Origin: Sphingomonadaceae bacterium
GTDB lineage: Bacteria > Pseudomonadota > Alphaproteobacteria > Sphingomonadales > Sphingomonadaceae
Reading direction: 5' to 3'
Length of the DNA: 35,879 bases
Assembly: GCA_009920915.1 (NCBI GenBank)
Contig: RFZB01000009.1
Location: forward strand, 1-35,879
Part shown: in pieces, positions 14,266 to 19,872 of the stretch
Numbering within the stretch: position 1 is the first letter of the stretch
Layout of the letters: every line of letters starts with the position of its first letter
Notes under the pieces: model-generated
Told to the model about the DNA's origin: nothing
The model's database searches: none
What the model saw: only the letters and a program-made list of their open reading frames with translations
Made by a program: the position numbers and the translations under genes

Positions 14266-14334
14266 GAGACTCGCCATAGCCTTATCCGACGCGGCGTCCA
14301 ATGGCGCAGCTAGGGGCGAAATATCAGTTCAGGG

Positions 14335-14364
14335 TTGAAATTCGGACTAATGCGGTCCAATTAG
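14335..14364 (+). promoter_or_regulatory. Candidate promoter/operator of the SUF operon
   Basis: In the short gap between pyrD and the Rrf2 gene, TTGAAA (14335-14340) and AATTAG (14359-14364) are spaced by 18 bases and could be a weak -35/-10 pair. Within it, GGAC (14344-14347) and GTCC (14355-14358) form an inverted repeat with a 7-base centre, flanked by AATT on both sides with one offset. An Rrf2-family regulator commonly binds such a site in its own promoter. If the -10 is right, the transcript would begin at or very near the start codon. All of this is inferred from position and symmetry. Confidence 0.35.
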
Positions 14365-14369
14365 CCGCC

Positions 14370-14801
14370 ATGCGATTATCGAGTCTGGCAGATTATGCAG
14401 TTGTCATGATGACGGCCTGTGCCCGCCATTGCGGCGGCACGCGCATCAATGCCGGGCAATTGGCAGAGGAAACGGGCATTCCCTTGCCCACCGTGCAAAA
14501 GCTGGTCAGCCGCCTCTCCTCTGCAGGTCTGCTCCGGTCCATTCGCGGCGCAGGCGGCGGGTTTAAGCTGGCGCGCCCGGCCGCTGCGATCAGCATTGCC
14601 GAAATTGTTGAGGCCATTGAAGGCCCCATTGCGATGACCGCCTGTGTGGAACAAGGTCGGCATGATTGCGCGCTGGAAGGCAGCTGCACGGTCCAGCCGC
14701 ACTGGCCCATCGTCAACCAAGCCGTACGCAGTGCGCTGGCAGACATCCGCCTCACTTCCCTCACCAGACCCATGCCACAGCTTGCTGAGGCGACGAGCTA
14801 A
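14370..14801 (+). CDS. Rrf2-family SUF system regulator (IscR-like)
   Basis: A 143-residue winged-helix transcription factor. The N-terminus MRLSSLADYAVVMM and the helix-turn-helix (INAGQLAEETGIPLPTVQKL) are typical of Rrf2 proteins, as is the wing SIRGAGGGFKLARP. Three cysteines, Cys92, Cys100 and Cys106, match the Fe-S cluster ligands of IscR (Cys92, Cys98, Cys104 in E. coli), with slightly wider first spacing. The protein is therefore expected to sense Fe-S status through a cluster and control the operon that it leads, probably by repressing it when clusters are plentiful. The ATG at 14370 is preferred to the frame start at 14301 because it gives the conserved N-terminus. sufB starts 3 bases after its stop codon. 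Confidence 0.9.
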   Translation: MRLSSLADYAVVMMTACARHCGGTRINAGQLAEETGIPLPTVQKLVSRLSSAGLLRSIRGAGGGFKLARPAAAISIAEIVEAIEGPIAMTACVEQGRHDCALEGSCTVQPHWPIVNQAVRSALADIRLTSLTRPMPQLAEATS

Positions 14802-14804
14802 GCC

Positions 14805-16283
14805 ATGACAGATACTCCAATTAAAGATGCGGCGGCCCATGCGGCGGCCGCCAAAGTTGCCGATTATGAGCATGGCTGGTCGGCTGATATTGAGCAGGAA
14901 TTTGCGCCCAAGGGGCTCAATGAAGATACCGTCCGCTTCATCTCGGCCAAAAAGAATGAGCCGGAATGGATGCTCGATTGGCGATTGAAAGCCTTTCGCC
15001 TGTGGCAGACGCTGGAGGCGCCCGATTGGGCCAAGCTCAACGTCCCGCCAATCGATTATCAGGACGCCTATTATTACGCCGCGCCCAAGGCGAAGAAAAA
15101 GCTGGAAAGTCTGGATGAAGTCGATCCGGAAATTCTGAAAGTCTATGAAAAGCTGGGCATCCCGATTGAAGAGCAAAAGGTGCTGGCCGGTGTTGAGGGC
15201 GCACGCAAAGTCGCCGTCGATGCCGTGTTTGACAGCGTGTCGGTGGCAACCACTTTCCGCGATGAGCTGAAAAAGGCAGGCGTCATCTTCCTGTCCATCT
15301 CAGAGGCGATCCGCGAATATCCTGACCTTGTCAAAAAATGGCTCGGCAAGGTTGTGCCGGTGCGCGACAATTATTTTGCCGCACTCAACTGCGCTGTTTT
15401 TTCGGATGGGACGTTTGTTTATATTCCAGAAGGCGTGCGCTGCCCGATGGAATTGAGCACCTATTTCCGCATCAATGCCGAAAATACGGGCCAGTTTGAA
15501 CGCACACTGATTGTTGCAGATAAAGGCAGCTATGTCTCTTATCTCGAAGGCTGCACCGCGCCAATGCGCGATGAAAATCAGCTGCACGCAGCGGTCGTGG
15601 AACTGGTCGCGCTTGATGATGCCGAGATTAAATATTCCACGGTGCAAAACTGGTATCCCGGCGACGCCGAAGGCCGGGGCGGCATTTACAATTTCGTGAC
15701 CAAACGGGCCCTGTGCCAAGGCGCACGATCCAAAGTCAGCTGGACGCAGGTTGAAACGGGCTCCGCCATCACTTGGAAATACCCAAGCTGCGTGTTGAAT
15801 GGCGATGACAGCGTGGGCGAATTTTATTCCGTCGCCGTCACCAACAATTTCCAGCAGGCCGATACGGGCACCAAGATGATTCACAATGGCAAGCGCACAC
15901 GCTCAACCATTGTGTCCAAGGGGATTAGCGCGGGCCATAGCAATGGCACCTATCGCGGGCTGGTGCGCGTGGCCCCGCAGGCGGAGGGCGTACGCAACTT
16001 CACGCAATGCGACAGCCTGTTGCTGGGCAATCAATGCGGCGCGCACACAGTGCCTTATATTGAAGTGAAGAACCCCTCCGCGCAGATTGAGCATGAGGCC
16101 ACAACGTCCAAAATCTCGGACGATCAGCTGTTCTACGCCATGCAGCGCGGGCTGGGGCAGGAAGAGGCCGTGGCACTGATCGTCAATGGCTTTGCCAAAG
16201 AAGTGTTGCAGCAATTGCCAATGGAATTTGCCGTGGAAGCGCAAAAGCTGCTGGGCATTTCTCTGGAAGGGAGTGTGGGGTGA
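14805..16283 (+). CDS. sufB: Fe-S cluster assembly scaffold SufB
   Basis: A 492-residue SufB, the scaffold subunit of the SufBC2D complex on which Fe-S clusters are built in the cytoplasm. The family features are intact: the N-terminal [13 protein letters not shown] segment, the beta-helix core with [20 protein letters not shown] and [22 protein letters not shown] (about residues 250-295), [12 protein letters not shown], and the C-terminal [19 protein letters not shown] with [10 protein letters not shown], which contains cysteine and histidine positions used for cluster assembly. The length is normal for alphaproteobacteria. It is probably translated together with the regulator, 3 bases upstream; sufC follows after 51 bases with no obvious hairpin. 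Confidence 0.96.
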
Positions 16284-16334
16284 CAAGATTGCAGGTCGTG
16301 TCGCCCAACCCCTTCTTTATCAGGATTTTTTGAT

Positions 16335-17078
16335 ATGCTTTCAATCACCAACCTCCAAGCGACTGTGGCGGACAAGCCCATTCTGAAGGGCCTTTCGCTG
16401 AGCATTAATGCGGGCGAAGTCCATGCCATCATGGGCCCCAATGGCGCGGGCAAATCGACGCTGGGCTATACGCTGGCGGGCCGCCCCGGCTATGAGGTGA
16501 CCGGCGGCAGCGTGGTGTTTGACGGGCAAGATTTGCTGGCACTTGATCCGCATGAACGGGCGGCAGCAGGCTTGTTTCTGGGCTTTCAATATCCCGTTGA
16601 AATCCCCGGCGTTTCCAACCTGCAATTCTTGCGCGAAAGCCTAAATGCCCAGCGGAAAATTCGTGGGGAAGACCCGCTGTCCGGCGCTGACTTTTTGAAA
16701 ATCGCACGCGCGCAGGCGGATGCCATGGGCATGGAGATGGACATGCTCAAGCGGCCAGTCAATGTCGGCTTTTCGGGCGGGGAGAAGAAGCGCAACGAAA
16801 TGGTGCAAATGGGGATTTTGAACCCCAAGCTGGCGCTTCTCGATGAAACCGATTCCGGGCTAGATATTGATGCGCTGCGCGTTGTTGGCGAAGGGATTAA
16901 CCGCATCATGCGCAAGGCCGATAAGGCCGTGCTGTTGATCACCCATTATCAGCGCCTTTTGGATTATGTGCAGCCAGACTTTGTGCACGTGCTGGCCGAG
17001 GGGAAAATTGTCCGTTCCGGCGGGCCAGACCTTGCGCTGGAACTGGAGCGCGAAGGCTATCGGGAGCTTGCTGCGTGA
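16335..17078 (+). CDS. sufC: Fe-S cluster assembly ATPase SufC
   Basis: A 247-residue ABC-type ATPase that powers the SufBC2D scaffold. Walker A is GPNGAGKST near residue 35. The Q-loop region is FLGFQYPVEIPGV, the signature is FSGGEKKRNEMVQM, Walker B with the catalytic region is LALLDETDSGLDIDAL, and the H-loop is LLITHYQRLL. It has no membrane segments, as expected. Its GTGA end (17075-17078) has the layout that, in the other junctions of this operon, also contains the next start codon. Here sufD begins 134 bases later, behind an inserted REP element. Confidence 0.96.
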   Translation: MLSITNLQATVADKPILKGLSLSINAGEVHAIMGPNGAGKSTLGYTLAGRPGYEVTGGSVVFDGQDLLALDPHERAAAGLFLGFQYPVEIPGVSNLQFLRESLNAQRKIRGEDPLSGADFLKIARAQADAMGMEMDMLKRPVNVGFSGGEKKRNEMVQMGILNPKLALLDETDSGLDIDALRVVGEGINRIMRKADKAVLLITHYQRLLDYVQPDFVHVLAEGKIVRSGGPDLALELEREGYRELAA

Positions 17079-17215
17079 CAGCCCTGCCCACCCGATCCAA
17101 CCTCATGCGTCACCCTGAACTTGTTTCAGGGTCCATGATCTCTGCCGTCGCAGGTTCTGCTGCGTCGTGTTCTTGGATGCTGAACCAAGTTCAGCATGAC
17201 GGTGCGGCGCGATGA
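17075..17215 (+). other. 46-codon mini-ORF bridging sufC and sufD through the REP element
   Basis: The GTG at 17075, overlapping the sufC stop as GTGA, is followed by 45 further sense codons through both REP hairpins. The frame ends at TGA 17213-17215, which overlaps the sufD ATG (17212-17214) as ATGA. The first codons are the duplicated former sufD start (VTALPTR); the rest includes RHPELVSGS and MLNQVQHDG, which are simply the repeat read as protein. GGGAG lies about 9 bases before the GTG. The likely role, if any, is to carry ribosomes to the sufD start. A functional peptide is not suggested. Confidence 0.45.
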
Positions 17216-17231
17216 CAGCCCTGCCCACCCG
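17076..17231. repeat. REP-type palindromic element flanked by a 19-bp direct repeat at the sufC/sufD junction
   Basis: TGACAGCCCTGCCCACCCG occurs at 17076-17094 and again, identically, at 17213-17231. Between the copies lie two hairpins. ACCCTGAA (17112-17119) pairs with TTCAGGGT (17125-17132) around CTTGT. ATGCTGAAC (17177-17185) pairs with GTTCAGCAT (17189-17197) around CAA. The outer ends (CGTCA plus CTGAAC, and its complement ending GACGG) are themselves mutually inverted. I recall such CTGAAC/GTTCAG palindromes as abundant dispersed repeats in Sphingomonadales. The direct repeat covers the sufC stop and the first sufD codons, so it looks like a duplication made at insertion. REP elements are usually moved by a RAYT-type transposase acting from elsewhere; none is in this window. 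Confidence 0.85.
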
Positions 17232-17937
17232 TCGTGATGAAGCCTGGCGATATGCGGATTTGGACGCCGTTGCGCGCGCCTGGCCGCTGCCCGCGCCTGA
17301 GCAGATTCAGGTCGCAGACGGGGGCAAATTCGCCCGGACAATTGTGCAGGATAAAGGTGGCATCCAACAGATTGATCTCCACCTGGGTGCCAACTCTATT
17401 GCTAGCCTCCACTTCCTCAACTTTGGCGCGGACTATGGGCGGATTGAGCTCAACGTGACCTTGGAGGCTGGCGCCGATTTCGCACTTGGCGCGGCGCAAA
17501 TTGGCGGCGCCAAGCAGACGCTGGAAATCATCACCACGGTGACACACGCTGCCCCGGATGCAACCAGCCGACAAATTGTCCGCTCGGTGCTCGCAGGCCA
17601 AGCAACAGGCACCTATTTGGGCAAGGTGGCGGTGGCGCGTGGCGCGCAACACACGGACAGCGAACAATCAGTCAAAGCCATGCTGCTGGATCGGACGGCC
17701 ACCGCCAATGCCAAGCCAGAGCTGGAAATCTACGCGGACGATGTGAAATGCGCGCATGGCTGTGCCATTGGTGAGCTTGATGCGATGGCGCTGTTTTACC
17801 TGCAATCCCGCGGACTGACCCCGGCAGAGGCGAAGACGCTTTTGCTGCAAGCCTTTGTTGCCGAAGTCTTTGAAGGTGCAGCCGACCAAGAGACGCTTCA
17901 GGCGCTGGCGCTCGCCCAGCTGGAGGCGCTGGCGTGA
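17212..17937 (+). CDS. sufD: SufD family Fe-S cluster assembly protein (short form)
   Basis: A 241-residue SufD, the partner of SufB in the scaffold complex, helping iron entry and cluster formation. It is much shorter than E. coli SufD (about 420 residues), keeping the N-terminal WRYADL motif, a reduced beta-helix core and the conserved C-terminal segment DVKCAHGCAIGELDAMALFYLQ. That segment holds the Cys/His pair corresponding to the KCSHG motif. Short forms are, as I recall, usual in sphingomonads, so this is probably not a truncation. The ATG at 17212 has no clear Shine-Dalgarno sequence (upstream bases are GACGGTGCGGCGCG). It was probably separated from its original site inside sufC by the REP insertion and may depend on coupling to the mini-ORF. 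It overlaps sufS by 4 bases (GTGA). Confidence 0.9.
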   Translation: MTALPTRRDEAWRYADLDAVARAWPLPAPEQIQVADGGKFARTIVQDKGGIQQIDLHLGANSIASLHFLNFGADYGRIELNVTLEAGADFALGAAQIGGAKQTLEIITTVTHAAPDATSRQIVRSVLAGQATGTYLGKVAVARGAQHTDSEQSVKAMLLDRTATANAKPELEIYADDVKCAHGCAIGELDAMALFYLQSRGLTPAEAKTLLLQAFVAEVFEGAADQETLQALALAQLEALA

Positions 17938-19055
17938 CATCTTATCGCGCAGACTTTCCCGGCATTGACGGCTGGCATTATCTCGACACCGCGGCAACGG
18001 CGCAAAAGCCGCGCGTGGTGATTGATGCCATGGCGCGCGCGCTGGGGCAGGATTATGCGACAGTGCATCGCGGCGTCTATGCCCGGTCTGCCCATATGAC
18101 CTTGGCTTTCGAAGCAGCGCGCCAGCGCGTGGCGCGGTTCATTGGGGCGCCCAGCCAAAATGAAATTGTGTTTGTGCGGGGCGCGACGGAGGCAATTAAT
18201 TTGGTCGCCCATAGCTGGGGCAGCGTGCTGAAAGCGGGCGACCGCATTCTCCTGTCGCAGCTGGAGCATCATTCCAACATTGTCCCGTGGCAGTTGCTGC
18301 GCGATCGCATTGGCATTGAAATTGATGTCTGCCCGCTGACCGCGGAGGGCGAGATTGATCTTGATGCGGCAGAAGCCCTGCTGACACCCCGGCACAAATT
18401 GGTGGCGCTTGCACACGTCTCCAATGTGTTGGGCTCAGTGCTTGATGCCAAGCGGGCGGCAAAGCTGGCGCACAATGTGGGCGCAAAATTGTTGCTCGAT
18501 GGCTGTCAGGCGGTGCCGCATATGCCCGTCAATGTCGCAGACTTGGGCTGTGATTTTTACGTCTTTTCCGCCCATAAGCTCTATGGCCCCACGGGCATTG
18601 GCGTCCTTTGGGCCAAGGCGGAGCTGCTGGATGCCATGCCGCCGTGGCAGGGCGGCGGCGCGATGATTGATCGCGTCACGTTTGAACGCACGACCTATGC
18701 CCCGCCACCTGCGCGCTTTGAAGCTGGCACGCCCGCCATTGCCGAGGCCATCGCGCTGACAGCGGCCATCGATTATGTCGATGGGATTGGGCTTTCGGCA
18801 ATCCACGCGCATGAAGCGGCGCTGGTCACCGCAGCCCGCGAGGCGATGAGCCAAATCAACTCGATCCGCCTATTTGGCCCGACAAACGCCGCCGGGATTA
18901 TTTCCTTTGCTGTCGAAGGAGTGCATCCGCACGACGTGGGCACCATATTGGATGAGGAAGGCGTGGCGATCCGCGCCGGGCATCATTATAATGATTTGGA
19001 TGATGTGACCGCGCTGGTGCGCGGTTTGGAACGGGTGAAGAGGATCTTCGGATGA
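17934..19055 (+). CDS. sufS: SufS-family cysteine desulfurase lacking the active-site cysteine loop
   Basis: A 373-residue class V aminotransferase-fold enzyme, GTG start overlapping the sufD stop. The PLP site is intact: His in SQLEHHSNIVPW, Asp in LLLDGCQA, and the PLP lysine Lys215 in FSAHKLYGPTG. SufS normally takes sulfur from cysteine onto a catalytic cysteine (Cys364 in E. coli) and passes it to the SUF scaffold. Here R347-A-G-H-H351 is followed directly by Y352-N-D-L-D-D, the beginning of the C-terminal helix. About 21 residues present in E. coli between GHH and YN are absent, including Cys364 and the substrate-binding Arg379. The family is usually about 405 long. The frame is preserved to the normal end (RVKRIFG). 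Desulfurase activity is therefore doubtful unless this is a sequence error. Confidence 0.9.
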   Translation: MTSYRADFPGIDGWHYLDTAATAQKPRVVIDAMARALGQDYATVHRGVYARSAHMTLAFEAARQRVARFIGAPSQNEIVFVRGATEAINLVAHSWGSVLKAGDRILLSQLEHHSNIVPWQLLRDRIGIEIDVCPLTAEGEIDLDAAEALLTPRHKLVALAHVSNVLGSVLDAKRAAKLAHNVGAKLLLDGCQAVPHMPVNVADLGCDFYVFSAHKLYGPTGIGVLWAKAELLDAMPPWQGGGAMIDRVTFERTTYAPPPARFEAGTPAIAEAIALTAAIDYVDGIGLSAIHAHEAALVTAAREAMSQINSIRLFGPTNAAGIISFAVEGVHPHDVGTILDEEGVAIRAGHHYNDLDDVTALVRGLERVKRIFG

Positions 19056-19516
19056 GCAAGGAAATCCGGATCGAAGAAGTCGATAGCGTGCCATCGCCGC
19101 CCAAGGCGCGCGTGGAAGACGTGGAAAGCGCAGGCGAAAAGCTGGAGCGCAAGAAAGATTATCTCGATGGCTTTTTAAGCCAAAAGCCTGCCGCCGTCCC
19201 TGCGACAGAGCCGGGTGGCGACTTGTACGATGCTGTCATCGCGGCACTGAAGGACATTTATGACCCGGAAATTCCAGTCAATATTTATGATCTGGGCCTG
19301 ATCTACAATGTCGAGATTAATGACAGCCATGTCCATGTGACCATGACGCTCACGACCCCGCACTGCCCAGTGGCCGAATCTATGCCGGGCGAAGTGGAAT
19401 TGCGCGTTGGCTCTGTGCCCGGCGTGGGCGATTGCGAAGTGCATTTGGTTTGGGATCCGCCATGGTCGCCTGACTCAATGTCGGACGAGGCGCGTTTGGA
19501 GTTGGGAATGCTATGA
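19052..19516 (+). CDS. SUF system DUF59/MIP18-family Fe-S assembly protein
   Basis: A 154-residue protein whose C-terminal part is a DUF59 (MIP18/PaaD-like) domain: YDPEIPVNIYDLGLIY (70-85) and TTPHCPVAES, with the conserved Cys105. The first 55 residues are a charged, probably flexible extension. Proteins of this kind inside SUF operons (SufT type) help Fe-S cluster maturation or transfer to target proteins; the exact step is not settled. It overlaps sufS by 4 bases (ATGA) and the following sufA gene by 4 bases, so it is firmly part of the operon. Confidence 0.92.
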   Translation: MSKEIRIEEVDSVPSPPKARVEDVESAGEKLERKKDYLDGFLSQKPAAVPATEPGGDLYDAVIAALKDIYDPEIPVNIYDLGLIYNVEINDSHVHVTMTLTTPHCPVAESMPGEVELRVGSVPGVGDCEVHLVWDPPWSPDSMSDEARLELGML

Positions 19517-19872
19517 CAACCGAAACAAAAGCCCGCGCCCGCCCTGCTGCTGTCATCCTGACGCCTGCTGCCGAAGCGCGCATTGCCCATCTTATGAGCC
19601 AAGCGCCGGAAGGGGCAATTGGCGTCAAGCTCTCCACCCCGCGCCGGGGCTGTTCCGGCCTTGCCTATTCGGTTGATTATGTCAGCGAAGCCAACAGCTT
19701 TGATGAGAAAATCGAAACGCCGGGCGGATTGTTCTTCATTGATGGCGCGTCGGTTTTGTATCTTGTCGGCTCTACCATGGACTGGCAGGAAGATGACTTC
19801 ACCGCAGGGTTTGTTTTTGAAAACCCAAATGCCAAAGGCACGTGCGGTTGTGGGGAGAGCTTTACGATATGA
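19513..19872 (+). CDS. sufA: Fe-S cluster carrier of the SufA/IscA/ErpA family
   Basis: A 119-residue A-type carrier protein. Three conserved cysteines are present: Cys47 in RRGCSGLAY, and Cys111 and Cys113 in GTCGCGESF at the C-terminus. These hold a transient Fe-S cluster received from the SufBCD scaffold and handed to apoproteins. The length and the C-terminal GCGESF end match the family. It is translationally coupled on both sides by ATGA overlaps, to the DUF59 gene upstream and the MBL-fold gene downstream. SufA is assigned from operon position; ErpA or IscA cannot be excluded from sequence alone. Confidence 0.93.
   Translation: MTTETKARARPAAVILTPAAEARIAHLMSQAPEGAIGVKLSTPRRGCSGLAYSVDYVSEANSFDEKIETPGGLFFIDGASVLYLVGSTMDWQEDDFTAGFVFENPNAKGTCGCGESFTI

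Follow-up and report, generated by a model that had tools for sequence, protein, structure and literature searches.

Whether a SUF operon can retain a cysteine desulfurase from which the residues of sulfur transfer have been removed is the question raised by a sufS gene of a Sphingomonadaceae bacterium (NCBI GenBank assembly GCA_009920915.1). The gene lies at 17934..19055 (+) of contig RFZB01000009.1, of which the whole stretch of 35,879 nucleotides (nt) analysed is referred to here as the window, and its 373 codons encode a group II cysteine desulfurase that scores above the cut-off of the NCBIfam model TIGR01979 and carries a loss of 63 nt. Read from the DNA, the last residues ahead of the loss, R347-A-G-H-H351, are encoded at 18972..18986 (+; R347 at 18972-18974, H350 at 18981-18983 and H351 at 18984-18986), and RAGHH runs straight into YNDLDD, the beginning of a retained C-terminal helix of 22 residues (YNDLDD...KRIFG, 18987..19052, +) which is 91% identical to that of the closest genus relative (genome G006). 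Comparison with relatives placed the junction between His351 and Tyr352 (18984..18989, +; Y352 at 18987-18989), where 21 codons are absent; in the G006 protein, HH and YN are separated by 21 residues, and the DNA alignment of the window with G006 displayed a clean, in-frame gap of 63 nt with both flanks matching. The placement of the break is ambiguous by a few nucleotides and a flanking direct repeat is absent. The gene starts with a GTG that overlaps the sufD stop codon as GTGA (17934), and its own stop codon (19053-19055) overlaps the start of a PaaD-like gene as ATGA (19052), both overlaps being intact. An earlier note on this DNA had described the joining of RAGHH to YNDLDD by an in-frame loss of about 63 bases, in a gene still coupled downstream by ATGA. 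The in-frame loss of the sulfur-transfer segment in the given sequence was confirmed, its size against relatives being exactly 63 nt or 21 residues.

Alignment to E. coli SufS (1i29 and others) identified the absent block as residues 364-384, starting at the cysteine of VRTGHHC and holding the catalytic Cys364, the helix that follows it and the strand with Arg379, as the earlier note had also recognised for the cysteine loop and the Arg379 strand. Cys364 of E. coli SufS is reported to bear the persulfide that is handed to SufE Cys51 (PMC6006206), and Arg379 has been proposed as the binder of the substrate carboxylate (PMC3343029). The equivalents of both residues are absent in the window protein and invariant in all 29 aligned sequences of relatives, which represent 29 of the 80 SufS loci found among relatives. 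This alignment contains 72 invariant columns, of which the window protein keeps 67, including Lys215, His112, His113, Asp189, Gln192, His214 and Arg347; the five that are lost (C, P, M, R and S) all fall inside the absent block, in agreement with the earlier statement that the other active-site elements were kept. Lys215 aligns with Lys226 of E. coli SufS, the pyridoxal 5'-phosphate (PLP) lysine; single-residue roles other than those of the cysteine and Arg379 are the ones usually assigned in this enzyme family. Compared with E. coli SufS/CsdB (1i29, 1jf9, 6mr2), the window protein is alike in its operon context, in the PLP lysine and its neighbours, in the presence of SufE in the genome and in its family-level score, but has no equivalent of residues 364-384 with Cys364, the next helix and the Arg379 strand. 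The intact G006 SufS, which is 90% identical over the common part and encoded on a collinear contig, differs in having the 21-residue block. Cysteine desulfurase activity is expected to be absent from the window protein. Its score against TIGR01979 was 483.4 bits (cut-off 475.1), with the best stretch stopping at profile position 360 of 403, as against 536.8 bits and a match reaching position 403 for the G006 protein. The model accepts the protein despite the absent Cys and Arg, so that automatic annotation may call it functional.

The AlphaFold model of the window SufS had a mean predicted local distance difference test score (pLDDT) of 84.9, with residues 248-265 below 50 and a β-hairpin absent. 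The corresponding model of an intact relative (L068) had a mean pLDDT of 93.2 and no residue below 50; its hairpin strands (244-248 and 251-254) were present, and its helix 350-359 and strand 365-368 lie in the block absent from the window protein. Each model was of one protein, predicted as a monomer from an alignment of 29-30 rows, SufS being a dimer. Residues 248-265 correspond approximately to E. coli SufS 259-276, a range that overlaps the β-latch hairpin, which is reported to shield the persulfide and to help form a close SufS-SufE complex (PMC10011822). The low pLDDT over this hairpin recalls the β-latch variant N99D of E. coli SufS; however, N99D is described as keeping Cys364 and turning over with an external reductant (PMC10011822), whereas the window protein has no such Cys and its disorder is a prediction. 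Helix α16 of E. coli SufS (Y345, D346 and F350) is reported to contact SufE (PMC11408855); the counterpart of this docking helix (HPHDVGTILDE) lies ahead of the loss and is kept in the window protein, and the remnant could perhaps bind SufE but not load it.

Close relatives, to which the earlier note had proposed an alignment, carry the segment throughout: all 29 of the SufS loci aligned (L003-L031, covering 29 of the 59 other genomes matched by the SufS search) read RAGHHC and then 21 residues up to a Y followed by N or S. The exact junction occurred in one of 13 genus genomes, namely the window's own, and a deletion common to relatives was rejected on this basis. The canonical Cys motif, sought in any forward frame of a locus and not tied to the SufS frame, was present in 78 of the 80 relatives' loci; the remaining two (L095 and L118) were dismissed as exceptions, since both read RASHHC with the Cys present. 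Across the family, 380 of 397 genomes carry the canonical motif and the window genome is not among them; the 17 without it are the window genome and 16 others, and among these 16 the sufS of G019 was inspected. There (G019:C1:1301508-1302566) sufS is broken into three pieces, one of them containing a TGA, perhaps through assembly frameshifts or as a pseudogene. A search of the same 397 genomes for V/I-A-I/V-R-A-G-H-H followed by a codon with a non-G second base, a pattern blind to Gly, Arg, Trp and two Ser codons, matched two genomes (the window genome and G130) and caught no further SufS with another residue in the place of the Cys; G130 was rejected as a second carrier, as its match sits in a non-SufS frame of about 187 residues and the genome also has a canonical copy. 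The best named SufS relatives (L062-L082, 66-71% identity) come for the most part from Sphingomonas, Blastomonas, Erythrobacter and Sphingopyxis, which points to a sphingomonad. In the titles and abstract openings of the open-licence literature, no natural SufS without the Cys segment was named, and no work on SufS with Sphingomonadales, or on misassembly in metagenomes, was found.

The age of the loss was approached through the ratio of nonsynonymous to synonymous substitution rates (dN/dS). For sufS, the values from the window to G006, G005 and G003 were 0.066, 0.085 and 0.103, and those among these three relatives, over the identical codon set, were 0.090, 0.092 and 0.117. The other suf genes gave window-G006 values of 0.020 (sufB), 0.042 (sufC), 0.071 (sufD), 0.028 (PaaD-like) and 0.059 (sufA). 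Lineage-specific amino acid changes in SufS numbered 9 in the window against 16 in G006 with G005 as the outgroup, and 15 against 8 with G003 as the outgroup, indicating no consistent acceleration of the window sufS. If the gene had been neutral since the loss, the neutral period could span no more than roughly 1-5% of the branch to the window, a rough bound for which half of the synonymous divergence (dS) was put on the branch and a normal error was used, dS near 0.85 being itself uncertain. The rest of sufS is as constrained as in intact relatives and, because it displays no relaxation, the PLP-binding relic suggested in the earlier note is disfavoured in its old, neutral form. Unrelaxed constraint is what either a very recent event or an artefact would leave, and is also compatible with a protein still under selection.

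A genome-wide search for other desulfurases and for SufE, as the earlier note had also proposed, recovered a single SufE and two NifS/IscS-type proteins and, in this assembly, neither a second intact sufS nor a stray contig that contains the missing segment; besides the window's own gene, recovered as two halves, the search for the latter gave two matches at chance level (E 0.29 and 0.65). SufE, on contig C294, has its conserved cysteine (VRGCSASVW). Over a shared core of 121 codons, its dN/dS from the window genome to relatives was 0.044, 0.109 and 0.074, and among relatives 0.041-0.061; higher values (0.08-0.18) were discarded as an effect of stop-to-stop frames and the core was used instead. 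Lineage-specific changes in SufE (5 against 3 and 5 against 2) display a slight excess in the window lineage that is too small to read. No match to NifU_N/IscU was found in the window genome, a draft that is 95% complete, nor in G006, G001 and G008; G002 and G012 each have one match (27 and 29.3 bits) above the cut-off of 22 bits, and the search was positive in 12 of 14 control genomes.

The two NifS/IscS-type genes are adjacent on contig C113 (L059:3850-6391), encode proteins of 372 and 365 residues and are followed by an open reading frame (ORF) named ferredoxin-like by eye. Their products carry the cysteine loops SAGSACSSG and SAGSACASG, and the shared SAGSACxSG we take to be the catalytic loop. 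Both fall below the curated cut-offs of all listed families, the best scores being 199.7 bits for NifS (cut-off 530.75) and 294.5 bits for IscS (cut-off 643.2). Of the six genus relatives searched, five have a similar adjacent pair, and SufS is intact in every one of them; the pair was not found in the draft G006. The cysteine loops were checked in the pair of the window genome. Since in relatives the pair stands beside an intact SufS, it is not a specific replacement. The earlier suggestion that sulfur comes from another desulfurase gains two candidates, which are a possible sulfur source, and a new desulfurase acquired as specific compensation is unsupported. Sulfide is a further possible source: in E. 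coli, a different system, it is reported to be able to substitute for IscS under anaerobic conditions (PMC13015791).

The reliability of the assembly at the site was assessed by comparison with G006 and G002. The window is contig 326 of a draft that comprises 347 contigs, totals 2.44 Mb and has 4.4% contamination, and is collinear with the G006 contig over approximately 26 kb (5679-31493). Other gaps of at least 3 nt against this contig are no larger than 11 nt (extra) or 8 nt (lacking); no other is listed within 14805-19872. In 157 ORF-to-relative alignments (87 to G006 and 70 to G002; 33,592 positions including gaps), made from stop-to-stop frames at an identity of at least 55% with the best segment of each, the sufS loss was the sole deletion of at least 10 residues, the next being 9 and 8; these alignments drew on about 171 kb of the assembly, with counterparts limited to 26 kb of G006 and 400 kb of G002. 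Extra stretches of 10, 15 and 19 residues were seen in the window genome relative to G002. As the sufS loss stands alone at this size, the assembly does not appear to be generally prone to such errors and, as its ends are without a direct repeat, repeat collapse was rejected as unlikely. The alignments and breakpoints weaken the case for repeat collapse and for a generally faulty assembly, but leave untouched the case for one isolated error, whether chimeric or due to the mixing of strains.

With a confidence that falls just short of even, the reading placed first is a very recent in-frame loss of 63 nt that left a desulfurase-null sufS allele, probably carried by the sampled population, in part of its cells or in all of them. 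Folding of the large PLP domain would be preserved, as would Lys215 and the SufE-docking helix; with both the persulfide-accepting Cys and the Arg proposed to bind the carboxylate gone, the protein would be unable to load SufE. To survive, carriers would need the two NifS/IscS-type enzymes or sulfide as a sulfur source, or neighbouring cells whose allele is intact. In favour of this reading stand the exact in-frame loss within an operon that is otherwise open and overlapping, the repeat-free ends, the lack of comparable losses in the aligned parts of the assembly, the rarity of the junction, the unrelaxed selection on sufS, the failure to find an intact copy in the assembly, and the presence of SufE and of other desulfurase-like proteins. 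The missing residues, how conserved and how rarely lost they are, the constraint on the remainder and the presence of SufE and the NifS/IscS-type pair are shown; the reality of the DNA, the inactivity of the protein and the origin of the sulfur are inferred. Several observations weigh against this reading: the deletion is known from one fragmented assembly alone; a draft genome with no NifU_N/IscU match may have no assembly route besides SUF, so that losing SufS would be expected to do serious harm; SufE remains under constraint (core dN/dS 0.04-0.11); and both NifS/IscS-type proteins are under curated cut-offs and would be putative suppliers of SufE or SufB. Ranked nearly as likely is an artefact of assembly or consensus, a possibility also raised in the earlier note, whereby sufS is intact in the cells and a chimeric read, strain-bubble resolution or gap closing dropped the 63 nt. 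Such an artefact is in keeping with the fragmented, incomplete and partly contaminated draft, with a loss known from one assembly alone, with a sufS remainder and a SufE that evolve as though functional, and with the missing NifU_N/IscU match, and the finding was moreover selected as an oddity, which favours rare errors; however, the breakpoints have no repeat, the loss is exactly in frame, the aligned parts of the same assembly contain no comparable loss, and a stray contig with the intact segment was not found.

The preservation of the frame, of the gene overlaps, of the large-domain active-site residues and of the docking helix counterpart, together with the low dN/dS and the two cysteine-loop proteins of the genome, would also suit a maintained pseudo-enzyme, a Cys-less SufS kept as a PLP-binding, SufE-docking or SufBCD-associated partner with sulfur supplied by a NifS/IscS-type desulfurase. 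This is improbable, a long shot: no other genome examined has one, intact SufS too is accompanied by a similar NifS/IscS pair, the structural model predicts disorder in the β-latch that positions SufE, and a very recent loss accounts equally for the low dN/dS. Slightly less credence was given to the version in which, in a genome that lacks a NifU_N/IscU match, the Cys-less SufS is maintained as a PLP-binding, non-catalytic partner on which SufE docks, and group I NifS/IscS-type enzymes feed SufE/SufBCD, such that SUF would be uncoupled from SufS catalysis. Least credible of all is an enzyme remodelled for another activity, e.g. a lyase or transaminase, on the retained PLP site; Lys215 and 66 other invariant columns are kept, but the Arg proposed to bind the carboxylate has gone with the Cys, which makes a selenocysteine-lyase-like activity unlikely as well, and the other invariant columns are unchanged. 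Were the null allele real and fixed, a bacterium with SUF as its sole detected iron-sulfur route would be able to live without SufS chemistry, and what else can feed SufE or SufB would become directly testable; if the allele is null but recent, or an error of the assembly, the finding would mean little beyond the annotation warning attached to the NCBIfam SufS model.

Apart from the loss in sufS, the suf operon of the window is that of an ordinary sphingomonad and lies on the forward strand in the order Rrf2-sufB-sufC-sufD-sufS-PaaD-like-sufA. An Rrf2-type SUF regulator (14301..14801; TIGR02944), sufB (14805..16283; NF008773 and TIGR01980) and sufC (16335..17078; TIGR01978) precede the sufD-like gene, and the SUF-associated PaaD-like protein (19052..19516; TIGR02945) and a sufA/iscA-like A-type carrier (19513..19872; TIGR00049) follow sufS, all of these scoring above the cut-offs of the models given; the carrier is below the cut-off of the narrower sufA model TIGR01997. 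The SufD-like protein (17212..17937) is short, at 241 residues, and its score of 177 bits against TIGR01981 lies below the cut-off of 222 bits.
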